Shown here: one piece after another, positions 4,052-23,560 of the stretch
Position numbering within the stretch: the stretch's first letter is position 1
Layout: each line of letters begins with the position of its first letter
Assembly (NCBI GenBank): GCA_916988195.3
Contig: CAKASQ030000003.1
Coordinates: 1-64,000 of the forward strand
Direction of reading: 5' to 3'
Source: Oscillospiraceae bacterium
Lineage (GTDB): Bacteria > Bacillota > Clostridia > Oscillospirales > Oscillospiraceae
DNA: 64,000 nt
The notes under the pieces: model-generated
Databases searched by the model: none
What the model was told of the DNA's origin: nothing
What the model saw: only the letters and a program-made list of their open reading frames with translations
Position numbers and translations under genes: made by a program

Positions 4052-4052
4052 C

Positions 4053-4394: not shown

Positions 4395-4648
4395 TGTAAA
4401 AACCTCCAATTATAATGTAGTAGGTCAGCCCAAACCCCACGCCCTTTCCCATTCTTGGGAAAGGGGGCGGCTCTGGAGGATATACCCCCGTCGCTTGCCG
4501 GAGAAAAAGCATAGCCGGGACAGGCGGTCAAGGGCTGGCCGCTGAAAACAGCGGTGCGATGCACCCTTGACAGCCCGTTCCCGCCCATGCTGAAATACGG
4601 GCGGCGACGGGGGATATAACCCAAAGAGCCATCTGGGGAAACGAAAGA

Positions 4649-4671
4649 CCTCGGGACAAAAAGTCCCAAGG
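4649..4671. repeat. Palindromic repeat copy 3, directly after topB
   Basis: Inverted repeat CCTCGGGAC / GTCCCAAGG around AAAAA, ending at the topB stop codon. On the minus strand it could also act as a hairpin after topB. It is the same family as 470-494 and 2310-2334. The rest of the 4395-4648 gap holds GC-rich hairpins and no gene that I recognise. Confidence 0.7.
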
Positions 4672-6279: not shown

Positions 6280-7348
6280 TCTTTTCCTCCGTTTCCTCGT
6301 CCTCGGTCAGATATTCTTCTTCATCCTCCAGGTCGAAATCATCCAGATCAGCGGGAACTTTCTTTCCCTGCTTCGGTTTCAGCACCAGGAAATAGACCGC
6401 CGTACCACCTCCGGCTGCAAGGATCAGCAGCACCGCCAGGATTGCCCCAGCATTACTTTTCTTTTCAGGTTCCGGATTCTCCGGCTCGGTGGGCTCCGCA
6501 GCTTTCTGTTCTGTGCCAACACATTCACTGAGGTTTTTTACGCAGACCTGGCAAGCGGTGTTGACCGCTCCGGCCTGGCACTTTTCCGTACAGGTGCAGA
6601 CAATAGGTGTTTCCGCCTTTTCTCCATCCTCCGTAAGCACCATGAGATCGGCTTCATCCACCTGGTTCAGAAAATGCACGGTTTCCTCGCCCTCATCGTC
6701 ACGGTCGATAATGAGATAGAACACGTTGCCGTTCTTCGTTTCCACTGTGATAAACTGCTTGCCGCTGGCAGTAGGGCTGCCGATATCGTCGATCAGCGAC
6801 AGGTTCCCGTCCGGTGTCAGGGCGGCACCGCCATTCAGACCGCCGCCCAGAATCCCCAGCAGATTTTCCAATGTTTCCGCGTCCAGAGAGAAAGAACCTT
6901 CCCCGGAACCAGCCTCGCCGTCACTTACCGTCATATAGCCGGAATAGACATAGCCGACTTTCTCCGGCAGGATGACCTTCAGCCAGTCGCCGTCCGTGCC
7001 GATCACCTTCACGGTTGTTCCGTTGGGAAGCTGAGTGAAGGCGGTATAATCCATTCCAGCGCCCGTGCGGACATTCAGATTGCCGCCGCCCGTGGTGACG
7101 GTGCCGGTCTGCTCAGAGTCATTTTCGCCGGAACTGAACTGGATACCATCCTCGGTGACGGATACCGTGACCTGGCTGCCTGCCAGAGCGGAAAGCAGAT
7201 CAGAGACATCCCCGGCCGTTTCCTGTTCAGTCACGGGCTCTGTGGTTTCCTCGCCGCCGCTGGCAAAGGCGGTGGTAGAAAAAGCGGCAGTGCTGAGCAC
7301 CACCGCCAAAAGAGCCGATACCATTTTTGTCATAAAGTTATGCTTCAT
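6272..7348 (-). CDS. DUF4366 (CD1107-like) ICE surface protein with SH3b domain
   Basis: A 358-residue exported protein: signal peptide (ALLAVVLSTAAFSTTAFA), a bacterial SH3 domain (GGGNLNVRTGAGMDYTAF ... GYVYSGYMTV), then the DUF4366 core (LSLIDDIGSPTASGKQFITV ... VHFLNQVDEADLM), a Cys-rich stretch (VCTCTEKCQ), a C-terminal membrane helix (AILAVLLILAAGGGTAVYFLV) and an acidic tail. It is probably a wall-facing part of the transfer machinery; the exact role is unknown. ATG 7348 has GGAGGG eight bases upstream and overlaps the DUF4315 stop. It is the intact counterpart of the broken gene at 1-441, though clearly a different version. Confidence 0.85.
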   Translation of the reverse strand: MKHNFMTKMVSALLAVVLSTAAFSTTAFASGGEETTEPVTEQETAGDVSDLLSALAGSQVTVSVTEDGIQFSSGENDSEQTGTVTTGGGNLNVRTGAGMDYTAFTQLPNGTTVKVIGTDGDWLKVILPEKVGYVYSGYMTVSDGEAGSGEGSFSLDAETLENLLGILGGGLNGGAALTPDGNLSLIDDIGSPTASGKQFITVETKNGNVFYLIIDRDDEGEETVHFLNQVDEADLMVLTEDGEKAETPIVCTCTEKCQAGAVNTACQVCVKNLSECVGTEQKAAEPTEPENPEPEKKSNAGAILAVLLILAAGGGTAVYFLVLKPKQGKKVPADLDDFDLEDEEEYLTEDEETEEKNE

Positions 7349-7610
7349 CCTCGTATCCCTCCGTTTCCTCATTCTCGGTGTTGCCCTCCTGCAGCATACC
7401 TTCCGGCAGGGAAATCATACCGCTGGCATAGGCTTTCAGGAAGGCGGTCAGTTCCTTGTTATCCATCTTCACGGCTTTCACCATGCGGACGATTTCCAGA
7501 TTTTCTTCCTCCGCAAGCTGGGTCTCCAGCGCACGAAGGCGTTTCTGCTGCTCCGTGATCTTCTCCCGGACCTTCTCAATATCACGTCGGATCTTCTCAG
7601 TAGTTGCCAT
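7338..7610 (-). CDS. DUF4315 family ICE protein (second version)
   Basis: A 90-residue coiled-coil protein (IRRDIEKVREKITEQQKRLR) of the same family as 438-695 but clearly diverged, so it comes from a different ICE lineage rather than a recent duplication. ATG 7610 is preceded by AAGGAG at a slightly long distance. It lies two bases after the stop of the PAPS-reductase-like remnant and overlaps the DUF4366 gene. Confidence 0.8.
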   Translation of the reverse strand: MATTEKIRRDIEKVREKITEQQKRLRALETQLAEEENLEIVRMVKAVKMDNKELTAFLKAYASGMISLPEGMLQEGNTENEETEGYEDEA

Positions 7611-7612
7611 AG

Positions 7613-8197
7613 TCAAATAAACTCCTTTCCAAATCGTTCTCTCCATGAATAGTTGCGTCCAAGCCCCTGAACGGTTTTCAGGTTGGCCCGTGCGTTATCC
7701 TCCAATGCCAGCGCACGCCGGAACAAATCCGGGTAATGCTCCCGCAGATCGATGATCTCCTCCGCCCGCATACTGGGGCAGAAAAAACAGGAGGACTTTC
7801 CCGGCTGCGGCAGGCCAGCCGCCTCGATTGCCCGGATACACGCCTCCCGGTCCCAGCCCCATTCCATCAGGGGATACCACTTGCTGTACTTCGGGTCTGC
7901 CAGATCACGCAGAAGGACCTTATCGCTGCGGTAGTGCTCGCCAGCGTCATAGCCGATGAACTTGACCACCTTTTTCCCGCTGACCCAGACCTTGCGGCAC
8001 GGAGGATAGTTGTTGCAGAACTTTTCCTGCGTCCCGATCTTGTGTTTCAGAGAACACCGCTTGAAGCCGTAGGCGATGGAGGGCAACGTACCGCTTTTCA
8101 AACATTCGTCCTCCAAAGTCAGCCGTCTGCCGTCCTTCGTGGTCTTATAGACCCGTGTGATCTCCGGCATACCGTGATCCTTCAGCCAGCGATCCAT
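7613..8197 (-). pseudogene. PAPS-reductase-family ICE cargo protein, C-terminal part only
   Basis: 194 residues that match the C-terminal part of the phosphoadenosine-phosphosulfate-reductase-like proteins carried by ICEs. It has a Cys cluster (CNNYPPC) and GKSSCFFCPSMRAEEI, which could bind metal or an Fe-S centre. The N-terminal PP-loop (SGGxDS-type) that binds ATP is absent: sequence breaks off at about 8197-8203, where an IS256-family fragment begins. The methionine at 8197 is internal. Insertion or deletion next to the IS destroyed the 5' half. Confidence 0.75.
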
Positions 8198-8759: not shown

Positions 8760-10114
8760 GATAATGTACAATAACTTGCGCAAATTGAAAACCGCATAAA
8801 AGAAGACATAGCTTGCAGGCTCTGGTAGAATGAAGTCACGACACACCATTCTGAAAGGAGACAGCAAACTATGTCCGAGAAAATTGTACAGCTGAATGAG
8901 GAAATTATCAAGGGACAGATCAAGGAATTAGTCCGCGGCAGCGTGGAGGAAACCCTGAACGAGCTGCTGGAGAAGGAGGCGGAGTCGCTGACGCAGGCGG
9001 CCCGCTATGAGCGCAGCGAGGCCCGTCAGGGCTACCGCAGCGGGCACTATGACCGCAGCCTCACCACCACCTCCGGCAACGTCACGCTCCACATGCCGCG
9101 GCTCAAGGGCGTGTCCTTCGAGACTGCAATCATCGAGCGGTATCGCCGCCGGGAAAGCAGCGTGGAGGAGGCCCTCATCGAGATGTACCTGGCGGGCGTC
9201 TCCGTGCGCCGGGTAGAGGACATCACGGAGGCACTGTGGGGCAGCAAGGTCTCGCCTGCCACCATCAGCGAGCTGAACAAGAAAGCCTACGTCCACATCG
9301 AGGACTGGCGCAACCGCCCGTTGCAGGGCGGGCGCTATCCATACGTCTACGTGGACGGCATCTACCTGCGCCGCAACTGGGGCGGAGAGTACGAAAATGT
9401 TGCTGTTTTGGTGGCGATCGCCGTGAATGAGGACGGTTTTCGTGAGGTTTTGGGTGCCGCTGAGGGAATGAAAGAGGACAAGGCCAGCTGGGTCAGTTTC
9501 TTCCAGTGGCTCCGCGGACGCGGCTTGGATGGCGTGAAGCTCATCGTCGGCGACAAGTGTGTGGGGATGCTGGAGGCCGTGGGTGAGGTGTTCCCAGATG
9601 CCAAATACCAGCGCTGCACGGTGCATTTCTACCGCAACGTTTTCTCTGTTGTACCCAAATCCAAGGTCAAAATTGTGGCAAAAATGCTCAAGGCGATCCA
9701 CGCCCAGGAGAGCAAAAAAGCGTCCCGCGAGAAGGCAAAGGCTGTTGTTGCCGAGCTGCGCGCCATGAAACTGAAGGAAGCTGCCAAGACGGTCGAGGAC
9801 GGCATTGAGGAGACGCTGACCTACTGCGATTTCCCCGGCGAGCACTGGACGCGCATCCGTACCAACAACGTGATCGAGCGGCTGAACCGTGAGATCCGCC
9901 GCAGGACTCGCGTGGTGGGGGCGTTCCCCGATGGCAACTCTGCCCTGATGCTGGCCTGCGCCCGGCTGCGCCACGTGGCTGGCACCCAGTGGGGCAACAA
10001 GAAATACATGAACATGAAGCACTTGGAGGCGGCTCTGGACGACGTCTCCGTTGCCTGCTGACTTCACTCAGCCGGAGCCTGCAAACAATTTTGCGCATAA
10101 ATCTTGACGGCACC
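8760..10114 (+). mobile_element. IS256-family insertion sequence, complete
   Basis: About 1.35 kb with one transposase gene. The octamer AAGGATAA sits at 8752-8759 and at 10115-10122 and is a candidate target-site duplication (IS256 elements make 8-9 bp). The ends share an imperfect inverted repeat: TTGCGCAAATTG near 8777 on the left against ATGCGCAAAATTG on the complement of the right end. A second inner pair carries TTGCAGGCTC (8813 on the left, near 10080 on the right). Exact ends are inferred by eye. Confidence 0.7.
8871..10061 (+). CDS. IS256-family (mutator-type) transposase
   Basis: A complete 396-residue DDE transposase. Catalytic motifs are visible: first Asp in YPYVYVDGIYL, second Asp in VKLIVGDKCVGML, and the Glu in NNVIERLNREIRRRTRVVG. 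This is followed by GAFPDGNSALML, typical of the family. Upstream GAAAGGAG supports ATG 8871. Unlike the fragment at 8201-8757 it has no frameshift, so the element may still be active. Confidence 0.95.
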   Translation: MSEKIVQLNEEIIKGQIKELVRGSVEETLNELLEKEAESLTQAARYERSEARQGYRSGHYDRSLTTTSGNVTLHMPRLKGVSFETAIIERYRRRESSVEEALIEMYLAGVSVRRVEDITEALWGSKVSPATISELNKKAYVHIEDWRNRPLQGGRYPYVYVDGIYLRRNWGGEYENVAVLVAIAVNEDGFREVLGAAEGMKEDKASWVSFFQWLRGRGLDGVKLIVGDKCVGMLEAVGEVFPDAKYQRCTVHFYRNVFSVVPKSKVKIVAKMLKAIHAQESKKASREKAKAVVAELRAMKLKEAAKTVEDGIEETLTYCDFPGEHWTRIRTNNVIERLNREIRRRTRVVGAFPDGNSALMLACARLRHVAGTQWGNKKYMNMKHLEAALDDVSVAC

Positions 10115-10229: not shown

Positions 10230-10883
10230 TCAGACGCTTTCCACCACGGTCACATAGCGCGCCGCGCGCTGCGCGATCGCGTCGTAATCCTCGTTGGCGA
10301 CATCCGCTTTGGTGACCAGGATGCTGCCGATGCCGGCGCCGGCCATTCCGGCGTTCAGGTAATCGCCGAGGTTCTCCGGCGTAACACCGCTGACCGCCAA
10401 AAGCGGGATGTGGTTGATGGGGGCACGGACGGCCTTGATATACTTCAGGTCGACGCAGTCCGCCGGGAAGAGCTTGACGAAGTCCGCTCCGGCCTGATAA
10501 GCGCCTGCGATCTCAGACGGCGTAAATGCGCCGGGAATCGAGATCAGGCCCACGGCCTTCGTCGTGCGGATGATCGCGGTGTCCACATTCGGCGAGATGA
10601 TATATTCTGCCCCGGCCTCCGCTGCGAGCTTCAGCTGTGCCTCGGTCATAACCGTGCCCGCGCCGACATGCAGCCGACCATCGAACGCTTCGCGCACGAT
10701 GCGGATCTGCTCCGCTGTCACCGCATGCGGAGTCTTTCCGGACTGGTCAAACGTGATCTCCATGAAGCGGAAGCCGCCGCGGTAGATCGCGTCCGCGATC
10801 TTTGTGATCTTTTCCGTCGGTGCGCCGCGGACGATCGAAATGAGCTTTTTCTCGCGCAGCCGCGCGCAGAGATCCTGTGCCAT
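10230..10883 (-). CDS. eda: KDPG/KHG aldolase (second paralogue)
   Basis: A 217-residue class I aldolase that splits 2-keto-3-deoxy-6-phosphogluconate into pyruvate and glyceraldehyde-3-phosphate. It shows FMEITFDQ with the catalytic Glu, HVGAGTVMTEAQL, IISPNVD, and the Schiff-base Lys in DFVKLFPAD. ATG 10883 has GGAAG seven bases upstream. It is last in the kdg operon. It differs from the first aldolase (13238-14212) in sequence and lacks the extra domain, so the two may act on different 2-keto-3-deoxy acids. The 10115-10229 gap below it holds no gene. Confidence 0.88.
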   Translation of the reverse strand: MAQDLCARLREKKLISIVRGAPTEKITKIADAIYRGGFRFMEITFDQSGKTPHAVTAEQIRIVREAFDGRLHVGAGTVMTEAQLKLAAEAGAEYIISPNVDTAIIRTTKAVGLISIPGAFTPSEIAGAYQAGADFVKLFPADCVDLKYIKAVRAPINHIPLLAVSGVTPENLGDYLNAGMAGAGIGSILVTKADVANEDYDAIAQRAARYVTVVESV

Positions 10884-11025
10884 AGAACATCTTCCTTTCA
10901 AAGCAATAAGTTCAAATGCAGCACAGCGCTGCACAGGAACGCTCAACGCAGTCAATCATTCAGGTACAGCGCTGTGAGCCTGCCGTCGGCAGGAGCGGAA
11001 AAAGGTGTAAAATGGAAAAAAAATA

Positions 11026-12180
11026 TCAGAGTGATTTGCAGAAGGCATCGATGCGGCGGAGCGCCTCATGCAGGTTCTCATCCGAGCAGGTATATGCGAT
11101 ACGGATGAAGCCTTCGCCGCATTCGCCAAAGGCGCTGCCCGGAATGCAGACGACCCTCTGCTCGTCGAGCAGGCGGTTGCAGAACTCGACGCTGCTCAGG
11201 CCGAAGCTGCTGATATCGGCAAAGACATAGAACGCGCCGTTCGGGCGGTTGCAGCGGATGCCGTCGATTTTGGCAAGGCCGTCAAGCAGGATACTGCGGC
11301 GGCGCTCAAAGACCTGACGCAGTTCTTCGCACAGCTCCGGATGGTCGAGCGCGACGGTCGCCGCGTACTGGCCGGGGGCGTTGGCGCAGGCATTGAAGTT
11401 CTCCTGGCACTTGGTCATACGGTCGACGATCTCCGCCGGGGCCGCGACAAAGCCGATGCGCCAGCCGGTCATGGCATAGGACTTCGAGAAGCTGTTGACA
11501 ATGACCGTGCGCTCCTTCATGCCTGGGAACGAGGCAATGCAGGGTGCCTCTTCTCCGGCGTAGAGCAGGGTGTTGTAGACGTCATCGGAGATGACCATCA
11601 GGTCGTGCTTGACGGCCAGCTCCGCGATCTTCGCCATCGTCTCGCGCGTCATAACGGAGCCGGTGGGGTTGTTCGGGGTGTTGATCATCAGCGCCTTGGT
11701 GTGCGGCGTAATGAGCTTTTCGATAGTCTCCGGCTGCATTTCAAAGTTATGCTCCAGATCCGTGGGAACGCGGACTGCCGTGCCATCGCAGTACGCAACC
11801 TGCGCAACGTAGTTCAGCCACTGCGGGTCCTGGATCAGGATCTCGTCGCCCTTGTTCAGCAGGACAAGGAACAGCAGACTCAGTGCGCCCATGCCGCCGT
11901 TGGTGATGATGATCTCCGTGTTCGGGTCGTAGTGCAGATCCTTCAGATAGGACTTTTCGGCGATGGCCTGACGGAACGAGAGCGTACCGGCGTTCGGCGT
12001 ATAATGCGTGATGCCCTTGTCGAGCGCTTCCTTGCAGGCCTCACAGACCAGCTTCGGCGTCGGCATATCCGGCTCACCAATGCCGAGACTGATGACGCCG
12101 GTCATGGTGTTCGCGCGGTCGAACATGGCGCGGATGGCGCCCTGCTTCAGAGTTTTGGCTTTTTCATTGATCCATTCCAT
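11026..12180 (-). CDS. PLP-dependent aminotransferase, class I/II (aspartate aminotransferase-like)
   Basis: A 384-residue fold-type I aminotransferase. Motifs include GIGEPDMPTP at the start, NGGMGALSLLFLVLL for PLP phosphate contact, NTPNNPTGSVMTRE, SDDVYNTLLY, and the PLP Lys in NSFSKSYAMTGWRIGF. Substrate cannot be set from sequence. Its place between KDG kinase and an aldolase suggests that an amino sugar acid or a 2-oxo acid made by the aldolases is transaminated; it may also be a general alanine/aspartate enzyme. Confidence 0.85.
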   Translation of the reverse strand: MEWINEKAKTLKQGAIRAMFDRANTMTGVISLGIGEPDMPTPKLVCEACKEALDKGITHYTPNAGTLSFRQAIAEKSYLKDLHYDPNTEIIITNGGMGALSLLFLVLLNKGDEILIQDPQWLNYVAQVAYCDGTAVRVPTDLEHNFEMQPETIEKLITPHTKALMINTPNNPTGSVMTRETMAKIAELAVKHDLMVISDDVYNTLLYAGEEAPCIASFPGMKERTVIVNSFSKSYAMTGWRIGFVAAPAEIVDRMTKCQENFNACANAPGQYAATVALDHPELCEELRQVFERRRSILLDGLAKIDGIRCNRPNGAFYVFADISSFGLSSVEFCNRLLDEQRVVCIPGSAFGECGEGFIRIAYTCSDENLHEALRRIDAFCKSL

Positions 12181-12199
12181 GATGCTGATGCTCTCCTTT

Positions 12200-13225
12200 T
12201 TATCTCTGCACTCTGCCGGTGCCGTCGCCGCCCATAAGCTTCGTCACATCGGAGACGGAAACACGGTTGAAATCTCCGATGACGCTGTGCTTGAGGCAGC
12301 TTGCTGCAACCGCAAACTCGAGCGCAGACTGCTTGTCCTCATAATGGTTCAGGCCGTAGATCAGGCCGCCTGCAAACGAGTCGCCGCCGCCCACGCGGTC
12401 GATGATGTCCCGAATCTCGTACTTTTTAGACACATAGAAGTCCTTGCCGTCATTGAGGCACGCTGCCCAGCCGTTCCAGTCGGCACTGTGGCTCTCACGG
12501 AGCGTGATGGCGATGCACTTCATGTCCGGATAGGCTTCCAAAACTTTGTTGCCGAGCGCGCGGTACTTTTCGCGATCCAGCTCGCCGGATTCAACGTTCA
12601 CATCGACCGTAATTTCGAGCGATTTCTGCACGTCTTCTTCGTTGGCGATCGCCACATCGACATATTTTGCAAGCTCTCGCATGACCTCGCTGGCTTTCTT
12701 GCCGTATTTCCAGAGGTTCTTGCGGTAGTTGAGGTCACAGGAAACCGTGATGTTCCGCTTCTTCGCTTCCTTGACGGACTCAAGAGACAGCTCCATTGCG
12801 GATTCGGAAATCGCAGGCGTAATGCCTGTGATGTGGAACCACTCCACACCCTCGAACGCTCTGTCCCAGTCAATATCGCCGGGCTTTGCCAGCGCGATCG
12901 AGGAATACGCGCGGTCATAGACGACCTTGCTCGGCAGCTGGTTCGCGCCACCCTCTAAGTAGTAAATGCCCATGCGCCCATCGCCGCGGACGATCTTCTT
13001 TGTGCCCACGCCAAAATAGCGCAGCTCGCGGATGCAGGCGTCTGCAATATCGTTCTGTGGCAGAACGGTCAGGAATTCCGCGTCCATGCCGTAGTTTGCA
13101 AGGGAGACTGCCACGTTGGCTTCGCCGCCGCCGAAGGTAGCCTCGAGCATCGGACTTTGGAAGAAGCGCTCGTGTCCCGGCGCTTTCAGGCGGAGCATAA
13201 TTTCACCAAATGTCAGAACTTTCAT
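12200..13225 (-). CDS. kdgK: 2-keto-3-deoxygluconate kinase (PfkB family)
   Basis: A 341-residue PfkB-family kinase making KDPG from KDG and ATP. It shows [11 protein letters not shown], the glycine-rich [17 protein letters not shown], the signature [15 protein letters not shown] with catalytic Asp, and a C-terminal GRVQR tail. It is 12 bases behind the aldolase-VOC gene, so the kinase and the aldolase that uses its product are made together. AGGAGG precedes ATG 13225. A paralogue with the same C-terminal tail lies at 30339-31436. Confidence 0.9.
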
Positions 13226-13237
13226 CTTCGCCCCTCC

Positions 13238-14212
13238 TTACTTTTGCAGCAGATGCACGGCAAAGCCGCCGAATTCCTCTTTGAGGTATGCAACTGTCAT
13301 ACGGCCGTTTTTGTACTTTGCCGAGCTTTCGTCATATGCAAAGCCCTTCTTTGCAAGCTCTGCCACCGCCAGCTCCACAGAGTTGGTGCGGATCGCAATA
13401 TGACCGTTTTTGCCCTTGAACATGGTCTTCATGACCTCGATGCCGCTGGATGCAAACATCGAAGAGCTGCCATCTTTGACAGGTAGGCCAAACGCTTCGT
13501 TCAGCTTCTCGCACACTGCGGACGCCACTGCGGCATCTTCGCAGTTGACGCCGATGTGCGCAACCTCAAAGCCGAGCGCGGCAGATCTTGCCTGCTTGCA
13601 AAGCTCCGTGATCTTCTCAAAATTACCCGCCGCGATGTCCGCCTTCGGGCAGACCCAGCTGCCGCCGACCGCGTGAATAAAGGGCGCGGCAATGAACTCG
13701 CCGATATTCTGCCCGTTGACGCCGCCGGTCGGGATGAATTTGATCCCGCCGAACGGACCCGAGAGCGCCTTCATCGCGGACAGACCGCCGTAAACGCCAG
13801 CCGGGAAGAACTTCACAACGTTTAAACCCAGCTTCATTGCCGCCATGATTTCCGTCGGCGTTACGCAGCCGGGCGTCACGGCAACGCCGTTTTCCACGCA
13901 CCAGCGGACGACCTCTTCGTCAAAGCCCGGCGAGACGATAAATTTGGCACCGCATTCGACAGCCTTTTTGCACTGCTCGAGCGTGATGACCGTTCCTGCG
14001 CCAACTAACATGTCGGGGCAGCTTTCCGCGACCGCCTTGATCGAATCCGCAGCCGCCGCCGTGCGGAACGTGATTTCCATCACGTCCACGCCTCCGGCAA
14101 GCAGAGCCTTTGCCGTCGCGACCGCATCTTTTGCGTCGTCCAATACGACAACCGGCACGATTGCCGCTTCTCTTATCTGACACAATACATTTCTGTCATT
14201 TATATACACCAT
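13238..14212 (-). CDS. eda: KDPG aldolase fused to a glyoxalase-like (VOC) domain
   Basis: A 324-residue fusion. Residues ~1-210 are a KDPG/KHG aldolase (VMEITFRTAAAA with Glu, LVGAGTVITLEQCKKA, Schiff-base Lys in NVVKFFPAG, FIPTGGV). Residues ~215-324 form a VOC-type domain (FEVAHIGVN, SGIEVMKTMFKGKNGHIAI, FGGFAVHLLQK). The C-terminal domain matches the free-standing protein at 29967-30326. ATG 14212 has GAGGAAG eight bases upstream. It is first in the operon with kdgK. The added domain's role is unknown; binding or isomerising a keto-sugar acid is a guess. Confidence 0.88.
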   Translation of the reverse strand: MVYINDRNVLCQIREAAIVPVVVLDDAKDAVATAKALLAGGVDVMEITFRTAAAADSIKAVAESCPDMLVGAGTVITLEQCKKAVECGAKFIVSPGFDEEVVRWCVENGVAVTPGCVTPTEIMAAMKLGLNVVKFFPAGVYGGLSAMKALSGPFGGIKFIPTGGVNGQNIGEFIAAPFIHAVGGSWVCPKADIAAGNFEKITELCKQARSAALGFEVAHIGVNCEDAAVASAVCEKLNEAFGLPVKDGSSSMFASSGIEVMKTMFKGKNGHIAIRTNSVELAVAELAKKGFAYDESSAKYKNGRMTVAYLKEEFGGFAVHLLQK

Positions 14213-14290
14213 ACTTGTAGCTTCCTCATAAAATGTCGTTATCATTTTCAAAGTTTTATCAAGGTCTGTTCCACTCGGCTATACACGCCC

Positions 14291-15625
14291 TTAAACATTG
14301 ATCCGCGAAAATATCTCCTGTCTATAAGTTTCCGCATCATGTAAAATTTTCTCTTCATCCAACGTAAGAACTTCTCGATTTCTCATAACAACCTTTCCGT
14401 TGATGATTGAGTCTGTAACATCGCTGGCGCGAACACCTTCGACAAGCACATTGATCAAACTGCTGGTTGGCCAGATATGCGGCTGCATCACATTTATTAA
14501 AATAATATCAGCAAGATAGCCTTCCTGAATGCGTCCAATCCGGTCTTCCATGCGAGCAGCCCGTGCACCACCCCAAATCAGCATGTTTAAGAGTTCCTTT
14601 ATCGTCAAAACAACCGGATCAAATATTGCAAGTCCCTGTGATGCCTGCACTGTAAAACGCAGCAGGCGTAGTTCTTCAAACAAATCCAGATTGCAGCCAG
14701 ATGCTCCGTCGCTGCCAATTCCAATGGAAATTCCTCGGTTCAGCAGCGCTGGCGTTTTTGGAATCCCATGATTGCCAAGATTTGCTCGCGGGCAGTGGCA
14801 TAGCCGTGCGCCGCACTGTGCTAAAAGATCCATGTCTCGTTCAGAGAGCAGAACATTGTGTGCACAGACAAGTCGTTCGTTTGCGAGCCCAAACTGCTCC
14901 AGCACCTCAATGGGACGTTTTTTGAAATTCTGCAAGCAATAACTGATCTCATCTTTGTGTTCAGCCAAATGAGCATGCACACCCACACCGAGTTCGGCTG
15001 ACCTTGCAGCAATTGCTTCCAACAGTGCCGGACTGCAACTCATAATCTGCCGCATCGCATACCATACCTGCAGTCTCCCATCTCCCGCACCATTATAGTC
15101 GCGGTACAGAGCCTCTGTTCGCGAAATGCATTCATTCGCGGTCTGTTGCCAGGATGCCGGGATAAACGCGCCCTGATCCATTGTTGATCTTGTCAGCACA
15201 GCACGAATGCCAGATTCAATGGCAGCCTCGGCCACAGAATGCATATGGTTTCCGCCTGCCTCAATCCCTGTTGTAATTCCGGATTTAATCTGTTGAAGAT
15301 ACGTTAATTTACCGGAAATGTAGCATTCTCGCTCTGTCAGCGAGCTTTCAAACGGAACCAGTATCCTGGTCCATACCATCGGATACTCATCCGCCAATCT
15401 GCCTCGCAACAGATACTGGCAGGCATGAACATGGCTATCCACTAGTCCCGGCATTGCAAGTTTCCCGTTGCCTCTTATAACAGTATCAGAAGCAAACAGA
15501 CACTGCGAATCATTCCCCACAGCTACAATCTTATTGTCACAGATCGCAATATACTGATCATCAGCAATATCGTACTGCGGAGTCAAAACACGAACGTTCC
15601 TTACCAGAATGTCACATTTTTGCAT
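14291..15625 (-). CDS. Amidohydrolase, TRZ/ATZ deaminase type
   Basis: A 444-residue metal-dependent hydrolase. Metal ligands are visible: HVH in PGLVDSHVHACQYLLRG, HAHLAEH, and GSDGASG with the key Asp; CAHNV lies between them. Closest type is the TRZ/ATZ group, which includes methylthioadenosine/adenosylhomocysteine deaminases and guanine or triazine deaminases. The substrate is likely a nitrogen heterocycle or amino-substituted compound brought in by the transporter just upstream. ATG 15625 follows GAGGGAGA. The 79-base gap to the KDPG aldolase gene has no clear terminator, so read-through is possible. Confidence 0.8.
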   Translation of the reverse strand: MQKCDILVRNVRVLTPQYDIADDQYIAICDNKIVAVGNDSQCLFASDTVIRGNGKLAMPGLVDSHVHACQYLLRGRLADEYPMVWTRILVPFESSLTERECYISGKLTYLQQIKSGITTGIEAGGNHMHSVAEAAIESGIRAVLTRSTMDQGAFIPASWQQTANECISRTEALYRDYNGAGDGRLQVWYAMRQIMSCSPALLEAIAARSAELGVGVHAHLAEHKDEISYCLQNFKKRPIEVLEQFGLANERLVCAHNVLLSERDMDLLAQCGARLCHCPRANLGNHGIPKTPALLNRGISIGIGSDGASGCNLDLFEELRLLRFTVQASQGLAIFDPVVLTIKELLNMLIWGGARAARMEDRIGRIQEGYLADIILINVMQPHIWPTSSLINVLVEGVRASDVTDSIINGKVVMRNREVLTLDEEKILHDAETYRQEIFSRINV

Positions 15626-15730
15626 TTTGCTTTCTCCCTCTATGATCTCTGTACCAAACTCAAAGCCAATCGCATTCCAGAATTTGTGGCAGTATTTGAG
15701 CAATTGGTTTAACAAAGAACAAGTCTTCCA

Positions 15731-16729
15731 TTAAACCCTTTCCGATTGACGACGAAGCAGCGTTACAATAATTACAGAACTGATCATCATAAGGCCCTCT
15801 ACGGTATATTTCAGCCATGTGCTCGCCTCCATCATGATCATTCCATTTGTTACCAAAGTCACCAGAACTGCTGCTAAAAGTGTTCCGGGAACATTGAATA
15901 TTCCCTTTTTCAGGAACGTTCCACCCATTACAGTAACCATAACCGCCAAAAGCTGGTAGCTCTCTGCCATATTGGGGCCTGCTCCATTTGACATTGAGGC
16001 CTGAATAATACCGCTGATTCCACACATGGTTGCAGACATAATAAAGGCAATCAGTTTATACTTTTTTGTCTGAATACCCATATAATCGCATGCCGTTTGG
16101 TTTGATCCAATTGCGAACAAAATCTTTCCAAGTTTTGTAAATTCAAGCAAGAACAGGATGATCGCACCAACACACACCAAAACGACAAACGGCATGGGAA
16201 AAATGCCAAACAAATAATGCTGTCCAAGATATGTATAGACATCGCTATCCCAGACGCGATAAAGCGTTGTACCATCAGTGATCCAGTACGCGATTCCTTT
16301 TACAACCAACGACGAACTTAGCGTCGCAAGAAAAGCCGGAATGCCTACAGTTAAATGCAAAAAGGCATTAAAAGCTCCCATTAAAGTAGCGGCAAGAATC
16401 CCCACAAACATGGCGCCAACATAATTGTTAAGAATTCTGGAGTCAAGAAGTACCGACATAGTACATGCGGCAATCGTCATTGCAGATCCAGCGGAAAAAT
16501 CCACTTCCCCTGTTGCCATGACACACGTCAGACCACAGCCTGCAATTGCAGCAAGGCAGGCATTGCTTAAGATGCCCAGAAGATTATTTGCACGTAAAAA
16601 ATTTGGCTGCATCAGACCAAAAAACAGAGTCATTGATGCGGTTAAGATCAGCAACCACCAGCGACCGAATACATTTACGGATGTACGAGCCAGCGGCCTG
16701 TTTTGTGCAGTTGAATGAGCTTCGTTCAC
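15731..16729 (-). CDS. ABC transporter permease (ribose type), second of a pair
   Basis: A 332-residue polytopic permease of the RbsC/BPD_transp_2 group with the signature TGEVDFSAGSAMTIAACTM and a later AIGSNQTACDYMGI segment. GTG 16729 is preferred because AGGAGG lies nine bases upstream; the TTG at 16738 would touch it. It sits 15 bases behind the first permease, so the two should form a heterodimer fed by one ATPase gene. That layout is also seen in nucleoside-type importers. Confidence 0.87.
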   Translation of the reverse strand: MNEAHSTAQNRPLARTSVNVFGRWWLLILTASMTLFFGLMQPNFLRANNLLGILSNACLAAIAGCGLTCVMATGEVDFSAGSAMTIAACTMSVLLDSRILNNYVGAMFVGILAATLMGAFNAFLHLTVGIPAFLATLSSSLVVKGIAYWITDGTTLYRVWDSDVYTYLGQHYLFGIFPMPFVVLVCVGAIILFLLEFTKLGKILFAIGSNQTACDYMGIQTKKYKLIAFIMSATMCGISGIIQASMSNGAGPNMAESYQLLAVMVTVMGGTFLKKGIFNVPGTLLAAVLVTLVTNGMIMMEASTWLKYTVEGLMMISSVIIVTLLRRQSERV

Positions 16730-16743
16730 AATACACAACCTCC

Positions 16744-17772
16744 TTAAATGTCAAATTTGACTTTTGGCAGACCTTCCTGCCGAATCGTCGCAATGATTCC
16801 GATTGCAGTCATGAAAACAAGACCTTCAACAAGGCTCTTGATATAAATGGAACTGCCGATTGTACCATATACGCCATTTGTAATTATTGTTGTCAAAAGG
16901 ATTCCAACGACGCAGCCCGGAACATTATATTTTCCAGGTGTTTTATACGTTGCGCCAAGTAAACAGCAAATCTGAGCTGGAAGCTGCAAATCTATTCCCA
17001 TCTGAACGGATGTCTGAAAGTTTCTGGATGAGTGCAGAATTCCGCCAATACCGGCTAAAAGCGCTCCAATTGCAAAGGAGAGCACCTGCATTCTGACGAC
17101 CGGAATTCCGACATTTTTTGCCGCTGACCGATTCGCGCCTGTAGCATAGATATAACGGCCTGTTTTCGTATGCTCGAGGAAAATATAGCACGCAACACAG
17201 ATTACCAGAAAAATCAGGCAGCAATACGGAATAACATTTCGAATTTTCCCCTGACCCAGCAGCTTATATGTTTCGCCCCAATTGTTAGAATAGAAGATTG
17301 TATTATTTGTTAGAAACGAAATTGCTCCGCTCAACAACGATCGGATAGCCATGGTTCCGACAAATGCCGGTACCCCAATTCTAACTGTGATAAAGGCGTT
17401 AAGCAGTCCCACAAGCACGGCCGCTGCAAGTGCAATAAATACTGCCGGAATATACCAGTTTGGGCTAGCGTTGGCCATAATTGCGCCAAGAACAGCCGCT
17501 GAAAAGCCAGCTGTAGCTCCAATGGACAAGTCGAAATTTCCTGTTGTCAGTTCCATCATAAGTCCAAGTGCAATAATGCCCTGTATAGATGCCGTTGACA
17601 AAATTGATGTTATTCCAAAGGAGGAAAAAACATTTGGATTCAACACATAAAATAAAAGAGCCAACCCCAAACCCACCAGAAGCAGGAAATGGCAGAGTAT
17701 CCATTGCCCTACCGTTTCCGGTTTTTTGCAATCATGTCCCTGTTTTGAAAGAGCATTCTCAACCTTCCTCAT
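16744..17772 (-). CDS. ABC transporter permease (ribose type), first of a pair
   Basis: A 342-residue polytopic membrane protein of the RbsC group: TTGNFDLSIGATAGFSAAVLG is the family signature, and ATGANRSAAKNVGI the ATPase-facing loop. The ATG overlaps the ATPase stop (ATGA), so the genes are translationally coupled. It differs clearly from the second permease, so this is not a recent duplication. Confidence 0.88.
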   Translation of the reverse strand: MRKVENALSKQGHDCKKPETVGQWILCHFLLLVGLGLALLFYVLNPNVFSSFGITSILSTASIQGIIALGLMMELTTGNFDLSIGATAGFSAAVLGAIMANASPNWYIPAVFIALAAAVLVGLLNAFITVRIGVPAFVGTMAIRSLLSGAISFLTNNTIFYSNNWGETYKLLGQGKIRNVIPYCCLIFLVICVACYIFLEHTKTGRYIYATGANRSAAKNVGIPVVRMQVLSFAIGALLAGIGGILHSSRNFQTSVQMGIDLQLPAQICCLLGATYKTPGKYNVPGCVVGILLTTIITNGVYGTIGSSIYIKSLVEGLVFMTAIGIIATIRQEGLPKVKFDI

Positions 17773-19283
17773 AGTTTTCTCCCCCTGACTGCAGTTTCTA
17801 CAATTCTCTTTTTATCGAACTCGTCACGTTCAAAATGATCTACGCAGTCTCCATTTGCAAAAACATAAAGCCTGTCGCACACTGCAAACAACTCGTCCAG
17901 TTCTGACGAAACCATCATAATGCATAGATTTTTCTCCTGCGTTAATGTCCGCAGCTTTTGATAGACCTGATATTTGGCCCCGATGTCCATGCCTGTTGTC
18001 GGCTCATCAATAATCATCAATTTGATCCCCTTCAGCGCAACAGACCTTCCTATGATAATCTTCTGCATGTTTCCGCCGCTGAGAGAAATGATTGGCTGAG
18101 AAACGTTTCTGTATTTCACGCTGTTGTCAGAAAGAACCTGCTCTGCAAAGGCATTGCTCTTCTTCCTGTCAATGATTTTCAAGAATCGGTTCGACAGTAA
18201 TTCATCCAAAAAGAGATTGCAGATATTGTCTGTTAGAGAAAGCCCACGGAATAAGCCCTCCATTCGCTTTTCTGGCGTTAAGATCATGCCTTCCTGGATC
18301 ATCTGCCGCGGCTTCGGCTTGGTGATTTCTTTACCGTTGAAAATATAATGAATATTTTTAGAATATCGAAGGCCGAACAAGCATTGCATGCATTCCGTTC
18401 GTCCAGCTCCAACGAGGCCATAAAATCCAACGACTTCGCCCGGGTATGCTTTAACTGAAATATTATGTACTTTTCCTCCGTAATGAATTTCTTCCACCTC
18501 AAGCAGCGGCTGCTTGTCCTTGGTCGGTGTTTGTGAAATTATTAACGGCTTAATTTTATCCTGACGCAGCATCGCATCGATACACATTTCCTGCGTCAAC
18601 TCGTTCGACGGAGCAAACAGAACATTTTGTCCATCTGTGAAAACAGCAATCTTATCGGCAATTTCATAGACTTCTTCGAATTTATGAGAAATGAAAATAA
18701 TAGCGATTTCTCGTTCTGATTTAATACGCTGAATGAATTGCAAAAACGGTTCAATTTCTCCTTGTCCGAGTGATGCCGTCGGCTCATCCAGAATCAGAAT
18801 TTTGGGGTTGGTGCGTAAGGCGCGCATGATTTCAATAAGCTGTTGTTCCCCTGCGCCCATCTGCTCAACCGGCGTATTCAGGTCAACGCTCAGCCCAAGG
18901 TCGTGCTTGATTTGCTCTGCCAACGAGTTTAGTCCTTTTCCGTCAATCAGTCCACTGCGGCACGGCTCATGTCCCAGACAAATGTTCTGAGCGCCTGTCA
19001 ACATACCCACAAGATTTCTCTCCTGATAGACCATACTAATTCCACGCGATATAGAATCAGCCGGTGTCTGAAACCGGACTTCTTCTCCTTCTACAGCAAT
19101 GCTTCCCTTGTCCGGATGATAAATACCAGTCAGCATTTTGCAAAACGTGCTCTTGCCCGCGCCGTTTTCTCCTACAATCGCCAGGATTTCATGCTTATCC
19201 AGTGATAAAGATATGTCTTTATTTGCAGCAACATCGCCGAAGTATTTCGTTAATCCTTTCACTTCCAAAACAGCTTGTTTCAT
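17769..19283 (-). CDS. ABC transporter ATPase, tandem (RbsA-like)
   Basis: A 504-residue protein with two ABC domains. N-terminal half: Walker A GENGAGKST, signature-like MGAGEQQLIEIM, Walker B ILILDEPTASLG. C-terminal half: degenerate Walker A GLVGAGRTE, signature LSGGNMQKIIIGR, Walker B LMIIDEPTTG. This asymmetry is normal for sugar and nucleoside importers. ATG 19283 has GGGAG seven bases upstream. It powers the two permeases that follow. Confidence 0.9.
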   Translation of the reverse strand: MKQAVLEVKGLTKYFGDVAANKDISLSLDKHEILAIVGENGAGKSTFCKMLTGIYHPDKGSIAVEGEEVRFQTPADSISRGISMVYQERNLVGMLTGAQNICLGHEPCRSGLIDGKGLNSLAEQIKHDLGLSVDLNTPVEQMGAGEQQLIEIMRALRTNPKILILDEPTASLGQGEIEPFLQFIQRIKSEREIAIIFISHKFEEVYEIADKIAVFTDGQNVLFAPSNELTQEMCIDAMLRQDKIKPLIISQTPTKDKQPLLEVEEIHYGGKVHNISVKAYPGEVVGFYGLVGAGRTECMQCLFGLRYSKNIHYIFNGKEITKPKPRQMIQEGMILTPEKRMEGLFRGLSLTDNICNLFLDELLSNRFLKIIDRKKSNAFAEQVLSDNSVKYRNVSQPIISLSGGNMQKIIIGRSVALKGIKLMIIDEPTTGMDIGAKYQVYQKLRTLTQEKNLCIMMVSSELDELFAVCDRLYVFANGDCVDHFERDEFDKKRIVETAVRGRKL

Positions 19284-19311
19284 AATCATTCTCCCATATC
19301 AAGCTTGCAAA

Positions 19312-19346
19312 GGGGCTACCTCAAAGTTCCTTCTTGAGGTAGCCCC
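19312..19346 (-). terminator. Strong hairpin between binding-protein and ATPase genes
   Basis: A perfect 13-bp stem (GGGGCTACCTCAA / TTGAGGTAGCCCC) with a 9-base loop, seven bases after the binding-protein stop. There is no long T-run, so it more likely protects the upstream mRNA or partly stops transcription, raising binding-protein dose over the membrane parts. Confidence 0.75.
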
Positions 19347-19352
19347 GAGTTG

Positions 19353-20597
19353 TTAACCTTCGTAAGCTTCAACCATGTAAATTCCAGGACCATCCGTCCA
19401 GTCCCACCATGCCGCTTCACCTGTAACGGAGGCATCATAGTAGTCAAATGCGCAATGAATCGATGTACCAATTGCCGGGACATTGTCTTTTGTCACAATG
19501 CTTCCCTCTGTGTAAATCGCATTTCCTGCCTTATCAAGAAGGCATCCCGGATCCCCCGGATTCATGCCTTCAATTTGAATCTGGCGAACAAGCTCCGACA
19601 TTTGATGTGCAAACAGCTCCATCGGTTGTGCATAGCTATACTTAAGCGGAGAGTCATCGCGGATATACGCCCAGCTCTGTTTGCCGCCATCAATACCGAT
19701 CACAAAGCATTTTTCACCGTTCGGGTCACCATTTGCCTTGATAACTTCTGCAGCGCCCATTGCGCCGTTGTCGCCATAAGAGAAAATGCAGTTAATCTCA
19801 TCACCATATTTTTGCAGCCACGTGCGAGCCATTTCCTGACCTGCCATCATGGAACTTCCAAGAGACGTCAGCAGCGCAGATACGTCATCTGTAACAACAA
19901 GCTTCATGTTGGGGCGGAACTCGCCTTCCAGATAGCCAATAACAGGGAACATACGCTCACTCGATGCGAGCTGGCTGTCGCAGCGAATCGCAGCAATGTC
20001 AAGATCCCAGTTGTAGTCAATGCCCACACGATACAGCAACTGCATTGTTGCAACAGAGCCTGGAATGCCAATATCCGTGATAATGCCCTGGTCAATTGAT
20101 CCAATAATGCTGTAAACGCCAATTTCCATCTCTCTTGCCGTCTTGTAGAGGTCTACGTGCGTTTCCACCGACATCGGGTTAATTAGAACGATTGCATGGA
20201 CGTTTTGGTTGATCAGGCTCATAAACGCATCGTTGTAGTTCGCCTCTGTTTCATAATAGACAGGCACGTAGTCCCAACCACGATGTGCGCACTCGATCTG
20301 AAGCTGGTGATCAATTCTCTTGATTGATTCCGCAGAAACATCTTTTGTGATGGCTCCCATACGGAACGTTTCGCCTTCCGCAAGGGTTTTGGGTCTGACA
20401 AAGGCATCAAACGAATCCGAACTAACTTTTGTAGCCTCAGTTGCTTCGGTTGCCTCAGTTGCTTCCGTTTCACGCTCTTCGGCTGAAGTCACCGGACTGC
20501 CTTGGCTGTCATCGCTTGCCGCTTCTTTTCCAGCACAGCCCATCAGCGATACCAGAAGCATTACGGCTACCATCAAACACGCAATTGTTCTTTTCAT
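19353..20597 (-). CDS. ABC transporter substrate-binding lipoprotein (sugar type)
   Basis: A 414-residue lipoprotein with signal peptide and lipobox (VMLLVSLMGCAGKE, Cys21), then a low-complexity linker rich in Glu/Ala/Thr with an ATEATEATEAT repeat. The rest is a periplasmic-binding-protein type 1 fold (FRMGAITKDVSAESI; ALVLI-like INPMSVETHVDL; CIFSYGDNGAMGAAEVIKANG; CFVIGIDGGKQSW). The fold is of the ribose/AI-2 class, but the ligand is not evident. GGAGGAAAAA precedes the ATG. It is followed by a strong hairpin and the ATPase gene. Confidence 0.88.
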   Translation of the reverse strand: MKRTIACLMVAVMLLVSLMGCAGKEAASDDSQGSPVTSAEERETEATEATEATEATKVSSDSFDAFVRPKTLAEGETFRMGAITKDVSAESIKRIDHQLQIECAHRGWDYVPVYYETEANYNDAFMSLINQNVHAIVLINPMSVETHVDLYKTAREMEIGVYSIIGSIDQGIITDIGIPGSVATMQLLYRVGIDYNWDLDIAAIRCDSQLASSERMFPVIGYLEGEFRPNMKLVVTDDVSALLTSLGSSMMAGQEMARTWLQKYGDEINCIFSYGDNGAMGAAEVIKANGDPNGEKCFVIGIDGGKQSWAYIRDDSPLKYSYAQPMELFAHQMSELVRQIQIEGMNPGDPGCLLDKAGNAIYTEGSIVTKDNVPAIGTSIHCAFDYYDASVTGEAAWWDWTDGPGIYMVEAYEG

Positions 20598-20676
20598 TTT
20601 TTCCTCCTGTTTTTTCTGCTTTAAGCAGTTATTGACTGTATTATCATTTGCGAAGATTTTCGCATCTCAGTTCCAC

Positions 20677-21828
20677 TCACTCCAGGAGCGCCGGAAAATA
20701 AATGCGCGGAACCCGTGCGGAAATTGCACATGTTACATCGCCCGGAGCTGTCTGATTCACACCGCCAAGTTCCATCGCGCTGACTTCATTTTCCCCGTCC
20801 ACGCCAAGTAGAATTGCGTAATCGCCTTCTTTTACGTCTGGCACATTGCTGATATCTGCCATAAAGTAGTCCATGCATATTTTCCCGATAACCGGAGCGT
20901 AAACGCCGTTCAAAAGAACTCTCGAACGATTCGAGTAATTCTGTTTGTAGCCGTCTGCATATCCTGCTGCTATAACGGCAATCTTTATCGCTTTTTCAGT
21001 GCGATACATGCGATCATAACTGACGCTCTCTCCCTGCGGTACATCATGGATTTGTAAAACGCGCGCACGCCAGCAAATTGCCGGCAGAAGTCCGAGCCGT
21101 TTGCGATATTCGTCGGAAATACATTGACCCAAAACAGTCATGCCAGTCCGTACCATATCCAGTTCCATTTCCGGATGTGTAAGAAACGCGGAAGTGCTGC
21201 AGCAATGGCGCAGTCCCAGCGAAAACCCAAGATGTTCCATGCGTTCGCAAAAGCTTACAAATGTAGAATATTGCGTTTGCGTAAAAGCTTGGTCATCCAA
21301 ATTCTCAGATCCGGCGCAAGCAAAATGCGTATACACCCCTTCGATCTTTAATGAAGGCATTTTAAAAATACGCCCTGCTTCTTCGCAAGCATTCTCTACA
21401 GAGAATGTCCGGCAGCGAATGCCGGTTCGGTTCAGGCCTGTATCGACCTTCACATGGCACAAGACCGACTGACCACTTCGCTCACATTCCCGCTGTATCT
21501 GTTCTGCATAAGAAACAGAGCTTATTGTCAGTGTAAATTCATTTTGACAAACCGTATTTATCTCGTTCGGATCGACGGGACCAAGGAGCAATACTGGCGT
21601 CCGGAGACCTGTGCGCCGAATCATCAGCGCCTCTTGTAACGTTGCCACTGCAAACATATCCGCATTCCTACATGCAATCGCACATTGCTCGATGCCATGT
21701 CCATACGCATTTGCCTTCAGAACAACCATCAGTTTGCATCCTTTTTTGATTGTTGCCCGTACTAATTCAAGATTGTTTCTAATGTGATTCAAATTGACCT
21801 GTGCATAATTTCGATAGTATTCGCCCAT
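20677..21828 (-). CDS. alr: Alanine racemase family enzyme, PLP-dependent
   Basis: A fold-type III racemase of about 383 residues. The PLP Lys lies in LMVVLKANAYGHG, the second catalytic Tyr in GESVSYDRMY, and typical GLNRTGIR, AAGYADGY and GKICMDYFM motifs are present. The start is uncertain: the ATG at 21828 gives a normal N-terminus (EYYRNYAQVNLNHIRNN) and has GGGG nine bases upstream, while the ATGs at 21843 and 21846 have none. Because it heads a transporter-amidohydrolase operon and faces a DauR-like regulator, it is probably catabolic and may racemise another amino acid. Confidence 0.85.
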   Translation of the reverse strand: MGEYYRNYAQVNLNHIRNNLELVRATIKKGCKLMVVLKANAYGHGIEQCAIACRNADMFAVATLQEALMIRRTGLRTPVLLLGPVDPNEINTVCQNEFTLTISSVSYAEQIQRECERSGQSVLCHVKVDTGLNRTGIRCRTFSVENACEEAGRIFKMPSLKIEGVYTHFACAGSENLDDQAFTQTQYSTFVSFCERMEHLGFSLGLRHCCSTSAFLTHPEMELDMVRTGMTVLGQCISDEYRKRLGLLPAICWRARVLQIHDVPQGESVSYDRMYRTEKAIKIAVIAAGYADGYKQNYSNRSRVLLNGVYAPVIGKICMDYFMADISNVPDVKEGDYAILLGVDGENEVSAMELGGVNQTAPGDVTCAISARVPRIYFPALLE

Positions 21829-22025
21829 GTATTCAAGCCCCATCATCTTACATTGTGTTTGATTTCTTTGTTGTTTTCAGAATTTTTTATGTTCATATCA
21901 TACAACGCTTTCTTTTCCTTGTCAATATTATTTTCATAATTTTCGCTAAAATTCTTACTTTATTTTTGTTCTACGACATGCTATTATAATAGTAACTACA
22001 TATATTGACATTGGAGGATTATGAC

Positions 22026-22697
22026 GTGGGAGACTTTGCAATGAATTATTGCTCTATGCAGCCTTGGATTCATCAGATTTTGGACCTGTTGGAAGCGCAT
22101 TTCGGATCTAGCGTTGAATTTGTAGTTCATGATCTAACATTGAATTATGAGCATACCATTGTCGATATTCGAAACGGAGAAATTACAGGAAGGCAGATTG
22201 GCGATACTGGAGATATTCTTGGTCTGCAGGTCCTCCGTGGAACAGAAAATAATTCTGATGATAATTTTTATCAGAATATCTCTTTCACAAAGGATGGACG
22301 GACTGTTCGTTCCTCCACGCTATTTTTGCGCGATACGCAAGGAACACCTACTGTTTGCATTGCCATTAATGAAGATATTACAAAATATACCGAATTCGAG
22401 CATGTGCTACAAAGCAAAATGCAAATTCCTTCTGACGCTTCAACAAACGCAAGCCTCGGTAAGGGGAACGTAAATGACATGCTGGATTATTTGATCAGCC
22501 AAGCACAACTCTCGATTGGAAAGAACACTGCTCTGATGACGAAGGAAGATAAAATTGCATATATCCATTTTCTTGACGAGCATGGCGCTTTTTTAATTAC
22601 AAAATCCGGTCAGCGCATCTGTGAAGCACTCAGTATTTCAAAATACACGTTATATAATTATCTTGAAATTTCAAGAGAAGTTGCTAAAAAAAATTGA
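22026..22697 (+). CDS. YheO/DauR-like transcriptional regulator (PAS + HTH)
   Basis: A 223-residue regulator: N-terminal YheO-like PAS domain (LEAHFGSSVEFVVHDL ... DIRNGEITGRQIGD ... RSSTLFLRDTQGTPTVCIAIN) and a C-terminal DauR-type helix-turn-helix (ITKSGQRICEALSISKYTLY). The relative DauR represses D-arginine catabolism. GTG 22026 is chosen because GGAGG lies eight bases upstream; ATG 22041 is in the same frame. It is divergent from alr across an AT-rich gap with TATAAT at 21985-21990. It probably senses a (D-)amino-acid-like ligand and controls the minus-strand operon. Confidence 0.83.
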   Translation: MGDFAMNYCSMQPWIHQILDLLEAHFGSSVEFVVHDLTLNYEHTIVDIRNGEITGRQIGDTGDILGLQVLRGTENNSDDNFYQNISFTKDGRTVRSSTLFLRDTQGTPTVCIAINEDITKYTEFEHVLQSKMQIPSDASTNASLGKGNVNDMLDYLISQAQLSIGKNTALMTKEDKIAYIHFLDEHGAFLITKSGQRICEALSISKYTLYNYLEISREVAKKN

Positions 22698-22884: not shown

Positions 22885-22918
22885 GAGGTCAGCGGTTCGA
22901 TCCCGCTTATCCCCACCA
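22885..22918 (+). other. tRNA 3'-end remnant, probable attachment site of an excised or decayed ICE
   Basis: The stretch GAGGTC followed by AGCGGTTCGATCCCGCT is a perfect variable-loop plus T-arm, and TTATCCCCACCA matches an acceptor 3' strand with CCA. Nothing upstream can complete a tRNA: the bases before do not form an anticodon arm. It is directly followed by a terminator, as a tRNA gene would be. Integrases that target tRNA 3' ends leave such copies. The bases 22698-22884 before it show no gene I recognise. Confidence 0.6.
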
Positions 22919-23141: not shown

Positions 23142-23279
23142 ATGCAAACACAAGTCAATTTCTCCTACTTTTACGGTGAAGAATCCGAACAGTTCAGCTA
23201 CTTCCGGATTCCGAGATTGTTGGTGCGCAGCAAGAAATTCAAGACGCTCTCCACCGACGCGAAGCTGCTTTACGGCCTG
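23142..23279 (+). pseudogene. ICE/plasmid replication initiator RepA, N-terminal fragment
   Basis: ATG 23142, preceded by GAGGTGA, begins MQTQVNFSYFYGEESEQFSY, then FRIPRLLVRSKKFKTLSTDA and KLLYGL. This is the conserved start of RepA_N-type initiators in Tn1549-like elements. Homology stops at 23279, where the sequence becomes the 3' end of an oppositely oriented MerR gene. Only 46 of several hundred residues remain. Confidence 0.78.
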
Positions 23280-23560
23280 ATACCCCCTAAGGTTTTGTTT
23301 CGCTTTTCTTCCATCATCCGCAGCCGTTTTTTGGTGCTGTCCGGCTGCTCCAGAAGCAGGCGCATATAGGTTTCTGCTTCTTCGGTGGTAAAGCCAATGT
23401 CGTGCAGCGTCAGAATGATACTGAGCCACTCCAAATCTTCGTCATCGTATTGCCATACACCCATCACTTTTTTGACTGCGTCGCACAGTCCCCAGCTCTT
23501 ATACTCCTGCAAGATGGAAACCGGGATATTGTAGTGCTCGCTTGCTTCCTGCTGCGTCAT
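23270..23560 (-). CDS. MerR-family regulator, C-terminus probably cut
   Basis: A 96-residue protein with a MerR-type winged helix (MTQQEASEHYNIPVSILQEY ... WQYDDEDLEWLSIILTLHDIG) followed by part of the dimerisation helix (EEAETYMRLLLEQPDSTKK). The last few residues (GGIRP) are encoded by the repA remnant, so the original end was lost at the join near 23280. ATG 23560 has GGGAG eight bases upstream. Without its effector domain it may still bind the inverted repeat ahead of it. Target genes are unknown. Confidence 0.65.
   Translation of the reverse strand: MTQQEASEHYNIPVSILQEYKSWGLCDAVKKVMGVWQYDDEDLEWLSIILTLHDIGFTTEEAETYMRLLLEQPDSTKKRLRMMEEKRNKTLGGIRP

Follow-up and report, generated by a model that had tools for sequence, protein, structure and literature searches.

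What is the function of an operon that opens with an alanine racemase homologue and continues with a sugar-type importer and an amidohydrolase? The locus lies in the window, the whole stretch of 64,000 nucleotides from a gut Oscillospiraceae bacterium that was analysed here. An earlier note had described six minus-strand genes headed by alr, divergent from a gene encoding a YheO-PAS/DauR-type regulator. All seven ORFs are present at the coordinates that it gave and their families hold up, as does the well-placed GTG start of the regulator, which has a GGAGG 8 nt upstream of 22026. Position 14291 is not the end of the unit, and the seven genes are the front of a longer one. Past the amidohydrolase, on the same strand at 10230-14251, lie genes for a KDPG aldolase, a KDG kinase, an aminotransferase and a second KDPG-type aldolase. 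This makes a ten-gene minus-strand unit running from alr through the second aldolase, with the regulator divergent on the plus strand. Its features, with identities to copies in the relatives' genomes G062, G031 and G125, are as follows.

22026..22697, plus strand: regulator with YheO-PAS and DauR-type HTH domains (PF08348 and PF13309, each above cut-off), starting at GTG and divergent from the operon
21897..21925, minus strand: predicted operon promoter TTGACA-17-TATGAT (consensus scan, 11/12 matches)
20677..21846, minus strand: PLP enzyme of the Alr family, Gly in place of Tyr354; probable start at 21828
19353..20597, minus strand: solute-binding lipoprotein of a rare family (borderline PF13407)
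17769..19289, minus strand: ATPase of a sugar-type ABC importer, with two ABC domains (profiles; 56% identity to the G062 copy)
16744..17772, minus strand: ABC importer permease 1 (PF02653; 44% identity to the G062 copy)
15731..16738, minus strand: ABC importer permease 2 (PF02653; 46% identity to the G062 copy)
14291..15628, minus strand: cog0402 (TRZ/ATZ-type) amidohydrolase, metal and deaminase residues complete
13238..14212, minus strand: KDPG/KHG aldolase with a C-terminal extension (profiles; 65% identity to the G062 copy)
12200..13225, minus strand: 2-keto-3-deoxygluconate (KDG) kinase of the PfkB family (best solved relative 2afb)
11026..12180, minus strand: fold-type-I PLP aminotransferase-like enzyme (98% identity in G125, 70% in G031)
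10230..10883, minus strand: second KDPG/KHG-type aldolase, probable last gene (PF01081)

The four downstream genes are separated by 12, 19 and 142 bp and, because of the gene spacing and the common strand, the ten genes are probably co-transcribed. The near-consensus promoter found 5' of alr by consensus scan, reading from 21925 to 21897, is a prediction, since such a scan does not prove function. A search for inverted repeats in the interval between alr and the regulator gene returned nothing beyond one 7-nt palindrome.

As for the racemase homologue, it scores 296.6 bits against TIGR00492, for which the curated cutoff is 168, and also matches PF01168 and PF00842. Its PLP lysine (K44), catalytic tyrosine (Y277) and PLP-binding arginine (R233), roles that were assigned via correspondence to Geobacillus Alr, are all kept in the alignment, and these residues are likewise retained in the Alrs encoded by related clusters in G062 and G031. 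By contrast with this conserved catalytic set, Tyr354 of the Geobacillus enzyme, the residue associated with alanine specificity in Alr sensu stricto (PMC3485190), is replaced by Gly in all three proteins, and the position of Ile352 is occupied by Ala or Thr. All ordinary Alrs of the family that we compared keep Tyr354, a divergent paralogue on contig C77 being unscorable at this position. Loss of the Tyr354 equivalent is known in lysine, broad-specificity and serine racemases (VanT) (PMC3485190). Since one solved alanine racemase has a Gln at position 354, loss of the Tyr alone is a hint and no proof of a new substrate. In the tree, the window Alr groups with those of G062 and G031 on a long branch with moderate support (85/68). 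Only these three stand out in an Alr-type search of 330 family genomes, at 713-718 bits compared with at most 356 for the rest, a gap that is exaggerated by a search model built from the same three sequences. The window's own genome encodes, in addition, a Tyr-type (canonical) Alr on contig C36 and the divergent one on C77, so that the window alr is not its sole racemase. That idea, which the earlier note had raised against its own reading, is thereby ruled out. The C77 paralogue (L037 11411-12502) is a curiosity in itself, with a different C-terminal part and a very long branch in the tree, and it neighbours a gene that we take to encode a FemAB-type aminoacyltransferase.

The surroundings of these enzymes are equally distinctive. 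A KDG kinase and/or KDPG aldolase gene is linked to the Gly354-type Alr at all three loci (window, G062 and G031), where the same enzyme set occurs in three different arrangements, while the pathway genes are absent from nine of nine ordinary Alr neighbourhoods. Genes at the relatives' loci were called with a codon-usage caller. The G062 cluster starts with an IclR gene, followed by RidA-type, binding protein, ATPase, two permease, deacylase-like and Alr genes. After Alr come three more deacylase-like genes, a KDPG aldolase, an EF_0837-type deacetylase and a stretch that we read as a second such deacetylase. The cluster ends with a DgaE-like gene, a second KDPG aldolase, a KDG kinase and a hydroxyacid dehydrogenase. 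The DgaE-like (D-glucosaminate-ammonia-lyase-like) gene scores 187 of 385 bits, well under the family cutoff. In G031, which belongs to the same genus, the regulator (53% identity) is divergent from Alr, and a deacylase-like gene, the aminotransferase (70%) and the KDG kinase (79%) follow. We call these genes deacylase-like for a presumed resemblance to D-aminoacylases; by profile they are no more than amidohydrolase-family members (PF07969, PRK09061). Locus L035 (10143-17835) shows an unusual expansion, four deacylase-like amidohydrolase genes lying in tandem or near-tandem around one alr. Conservation of the seven-gene set, to which the earlier note had looked, does not extend to the full set. 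We found no second copy of it, sub-blocks alone recurring in the two relatives (importer and Alr in G062, regulator and Alr in G031), and we rejected the seven genes as a conserved unit.

The genes downstream of the amidohydrolase, which the earlier note had left outside its coordinates, are the best clue to the pathway. The KDG kinase matches the solved KDG kinase 2afb with 338 bits (E 4.9e-100), and scores below the NCBIfam equivalog cutoffs. The unit contains two PF01081 aldolases, and hence the KDPG aldolase function of DgaF. Since another KDPG aldolase, the third of the genome, is encoded on contig C22, the cassette is not the only source of this activity.

The importer has an RbsA/AraG-type ATPase and two PF02653 permeases, and its binding protein reaches PF13407 only at the borderline (37.1 bits, cut-off 35.1). 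The binding protein belongs to a rare family with one relative, at 51% identity, in G062, which turned up again in a goat-rectum MAG assigned to Oscillospiraceae. Order-level (394) and class-level (391) genome draws gave no further match at E <= 1e-15. A contig scan with the two-sequence alignment returned the G062 locus only, using two narrow peptide patterns that make absence a weak result. Inferring the ligand from the fold of the binding protein was discarded, the predicted model having a pLDDT of 46. For the regulator, the earlier note had pointed to the control of D-arginine catabolism by DauR, and nothing in the unit points specifically to D-arginine.

Among the genes of the unit, the amidohydrolase is the hardest to account for. 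Its HxH, His, Glu, His and Asp residues (H66, H68, H220, E223, H257 and D307) are invariant in the alignment, and a longer form with a TTG start, extending to 15715, is less likely. It falls below every NCBIfam equivalog cutoff, the best being 5'-deoxyadenosine deaminase (PRK07228, 318.5 of 522 bits), and its best-scoring profiles are nucleoside and purine deaminases. Its nearest relative (66% identity) is encoded in G062 on a different contig from the cluster, divergent from an AzgA-like permease, and the cluster that holds a relative with 48% identity in G160 also has genes for a nucleoside hydrolase and for an importer of BMP type; we named these three neighbours by reading their sequences. 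Neither G062 nor G031 has the amidohydrolase in its Alr cluster, and in its movements this gene is not tied to the importer.

Base composition divides the unit. GC3 is 0.36-0.49 from the regulator to the amidohydrolase and 0.70-0.82 in the two aldolases, the kinase and the aminotransferase. The aldolase-kinase-aminotransferase cassette recurs in G125, from another genus; the proteins are 93-98% identical, and the DNA is 90.8% identical across window positions 11033-14158. This homology starts inside the aldolase gene, at 14158, and the reading frame is kept across the junction; therefore, the low-GC segment appears to carry its own aldolase 5' end. This suggests that, in the donor of that segment, an aldolase gene stood at the same point, and the aldolase gene was probably the recombination point. 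In G125 (L100 6967-15650), the cassette is preceded by an Amidohydro_2 gene and what we take, from its sequence, to be a BMP-type importer, with no Alr. The import half is swapped as a module between the window and G125, and the operon has been assembled horizontally.

We favor, tentatively and at somewhat short of an even chance, the reading that this is a catabolic operon under a divergent YheO/DauR-like regulator, draining an amino sugar acid via KDG and KDPG to pyruvate. The compound entering through the sugar-type importer would be a D-configured amino compound; the likeliest is an (N-acylated) 2-amino-2-deoxy-aldonate, for example D-glucosaminate, which is a D-amino acid at C2. The amidohydrolase might release the amino acid, a step that is plausible in the relatives with deacylase-like genes and less supported in the window. 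The Alr-family enzyme, its pocket opened by the change of Tyr354 to Gly, would then invert C2 or strip the amine by beta-elimination; a promiscuous beta-lyase activity has been described for Escherichia coli Alr (PMC5025676). The fold-type-I PLP enzyme would finish nitrogen removal, by transamination or elimination, and the resulting 2-keto-3-deoxy acid would be phosphorylated by the KDG kinase, after which the KDPG aldolase would split it into pyruvate and glyceraldehyde-3-phosphate. What we infer here is which substrate is used, which reaction Alr catalyses and what the aminotransferase and amidohydrolase contribute. D-glucosaminate is proposed because several lines converge on it, namely the sugar-type importer, the deacylase-like genes of the relatives, the opened pocket of a PLP enzyme related to racemases, the DgaE-like enzyme of one relative, and the KDG kinase together with the KDPG aldolase. 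Against it, the window unit contains no deacylase, the amidohydrolase that it does have seems connected with purines or nucleosides, only three Gly354-type Alr loci are known, and in G125 the cassette occurs without Alr. Bolder, and rather doubtful, is the more general idea that an Alr-fold enzyme has come to act on amino sugar acids, either epimerising them at C2 or deaminating them by beta-elimination, in a route that feeds (N-acylated) amino sugar acids into the Entner-Doudoroff pathway, with swappable import and hydrolase modules placed before a common cassette of KDPG aldolase, KDG kinase and aminotransferase. If true, a new class of substrates would be known for a relative of alanine racemase, it would be seen by what means gut Oscillospiraceae could live on amino sugar acids or D-amino-acid conjugates, and a gene annotated 'alr' with Gly at 354 might encode a catabolic enzyme and not a cell-wall racemase.

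Some of the same evidence would also fit a general salvage of D-amino acids, in which these or their N-acyl forms are imported, turned into L-forms by a broad-specificity racemase and then deaminated by the aminotransferase, while the KDG/KDPG genes are mere neighbours that serve another sugar acid. The deacylase-like genes next to Alr in two relatives, the DauR-like regulator and a Tyr354 position opened as in Lyr and Bar (PMC3485190) all agree with this. However, the importer resembles sugar importers, and a KDG kinase and/or KDPG aldolase accompanies all three such Alrs in differing orders, which leaves this explanation a minor chance. The earlier note had proposed uptake and breakdown of a D-amino-acid conjugate or an amino-bearing heterocycle. 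Its D-amino-acid part is favored by context, Alr occurring with deacylase-like and KDG/KDPG genes in two relatives, while the heterocycle part is weak, the amidohydrolase being the only gene to speak for it. Were the importer to deliver a purine-like ligand for deamination by the amidohydrolase, with alr incidental, the nucleoside and purine deaminase profiles, the purine- and nucleoside-type neighbours of the amidohydrolase relatives and the BMP-type importer before the G125 cassette would find an explanation. This is improbable, since the closest known relative of the importer sits in an Alr/deacylase cluster that lacks this amidohydrolase, and the latter moves independently of the importer.

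The composition step and mosaic structure, with mobile-element genes on the left and a tRNA fragment on the right, might instead mean that recombination placed an unrelated import operon before a sugar-acid cassette, with no single pathway. Chance would have to account for the equivalent gene sets of G062 and G031, with their different orders, and for a junction that preserves the frame within the aldolase gene; we regard it as distinctly unlikely. That the enzyme is a VanT-type racemase serving the cell wall or resistance, or that it protects against D-cycloserine, has next to no probability. Although the top NCBIfam score of the window Alr is for the VanT-G C-terminal model, its 312.7 bits fall under the cutoff of 460, the ORF has no VanT membrane domain, the specificity site holds Gly and not Asn, the unit contains no other van gene and the neighbours are catabolic.

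The favored route to pyruvate can be compared with known systems; we found no operon of this kind in the open-access literature. We take dauBAR, for D-arginine catabolism, to be similar in having a regulator of the YheO-PAS/HTH family beside D-amino-acid-type genes; no flavin D-amino-acid (D-arginine) dehydrogenase domain is present among the genes of the window unit. D-glucosaminate catabolism by Salmonella dgaABCDEF finishes at the same KDPG aldolase step and also uses a PLP enzyme to remove the amine of a D-amino acid (PMC9529869), with a further likeness in the DgaE-like gene of G062. However, uptake there is by a PTS rather than an ABC importer, the window's genome has no match to a DgaE-type ammonia lyase, and the window unit adds an Alr relative and a KDG kinase. 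Lyr/Bar and VanT share the Alr fold and a replaced Tyr354 equivalent, with Thr, Ala and Asn where the window enzyme has Gly (PMC3485190). In contrast to these, the window Alr belongs with TIGR00492 by score and retains Lys where the carbamylated lysine is placed. Like the cog0402 deaminases of 5'-deoxyadenosine, SAH/MTA and guanine, the amidohydrolase keeps the metal ligands and the deaminase Glu, and it differs from them in its scores below every equivalog cutoff and in its operon context.

A plasmid origin was considered and rejected, the matches being limited to DNA segments of ~40-65 bp in the aminotransferase, with no protein match for the binding protein. Beyond the operon on the left, the window contains ICE-like mobile-element genes at 709-8197 (an NlpC/P60 protein, a TraG-like fragment, a DNA topoisomerase, CD1107-like and DUF4315 genes) and a Mutator-family transposase at 8871-10061. 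On the other side, a short plus-strand stretch at 23143-23290 reads like the cut-off N-terminus of a RepA_N-type replication initiator, of which 45 residues gave no match in Pfam. Between this stretch and the regulator lies a perfect tRNA 3'-end fragment (22887-22918). ARAGORN detected no intact tRNA in the window, and near-identical ends are found on contigs C22 and C68; the fragment may mark an old integration site.
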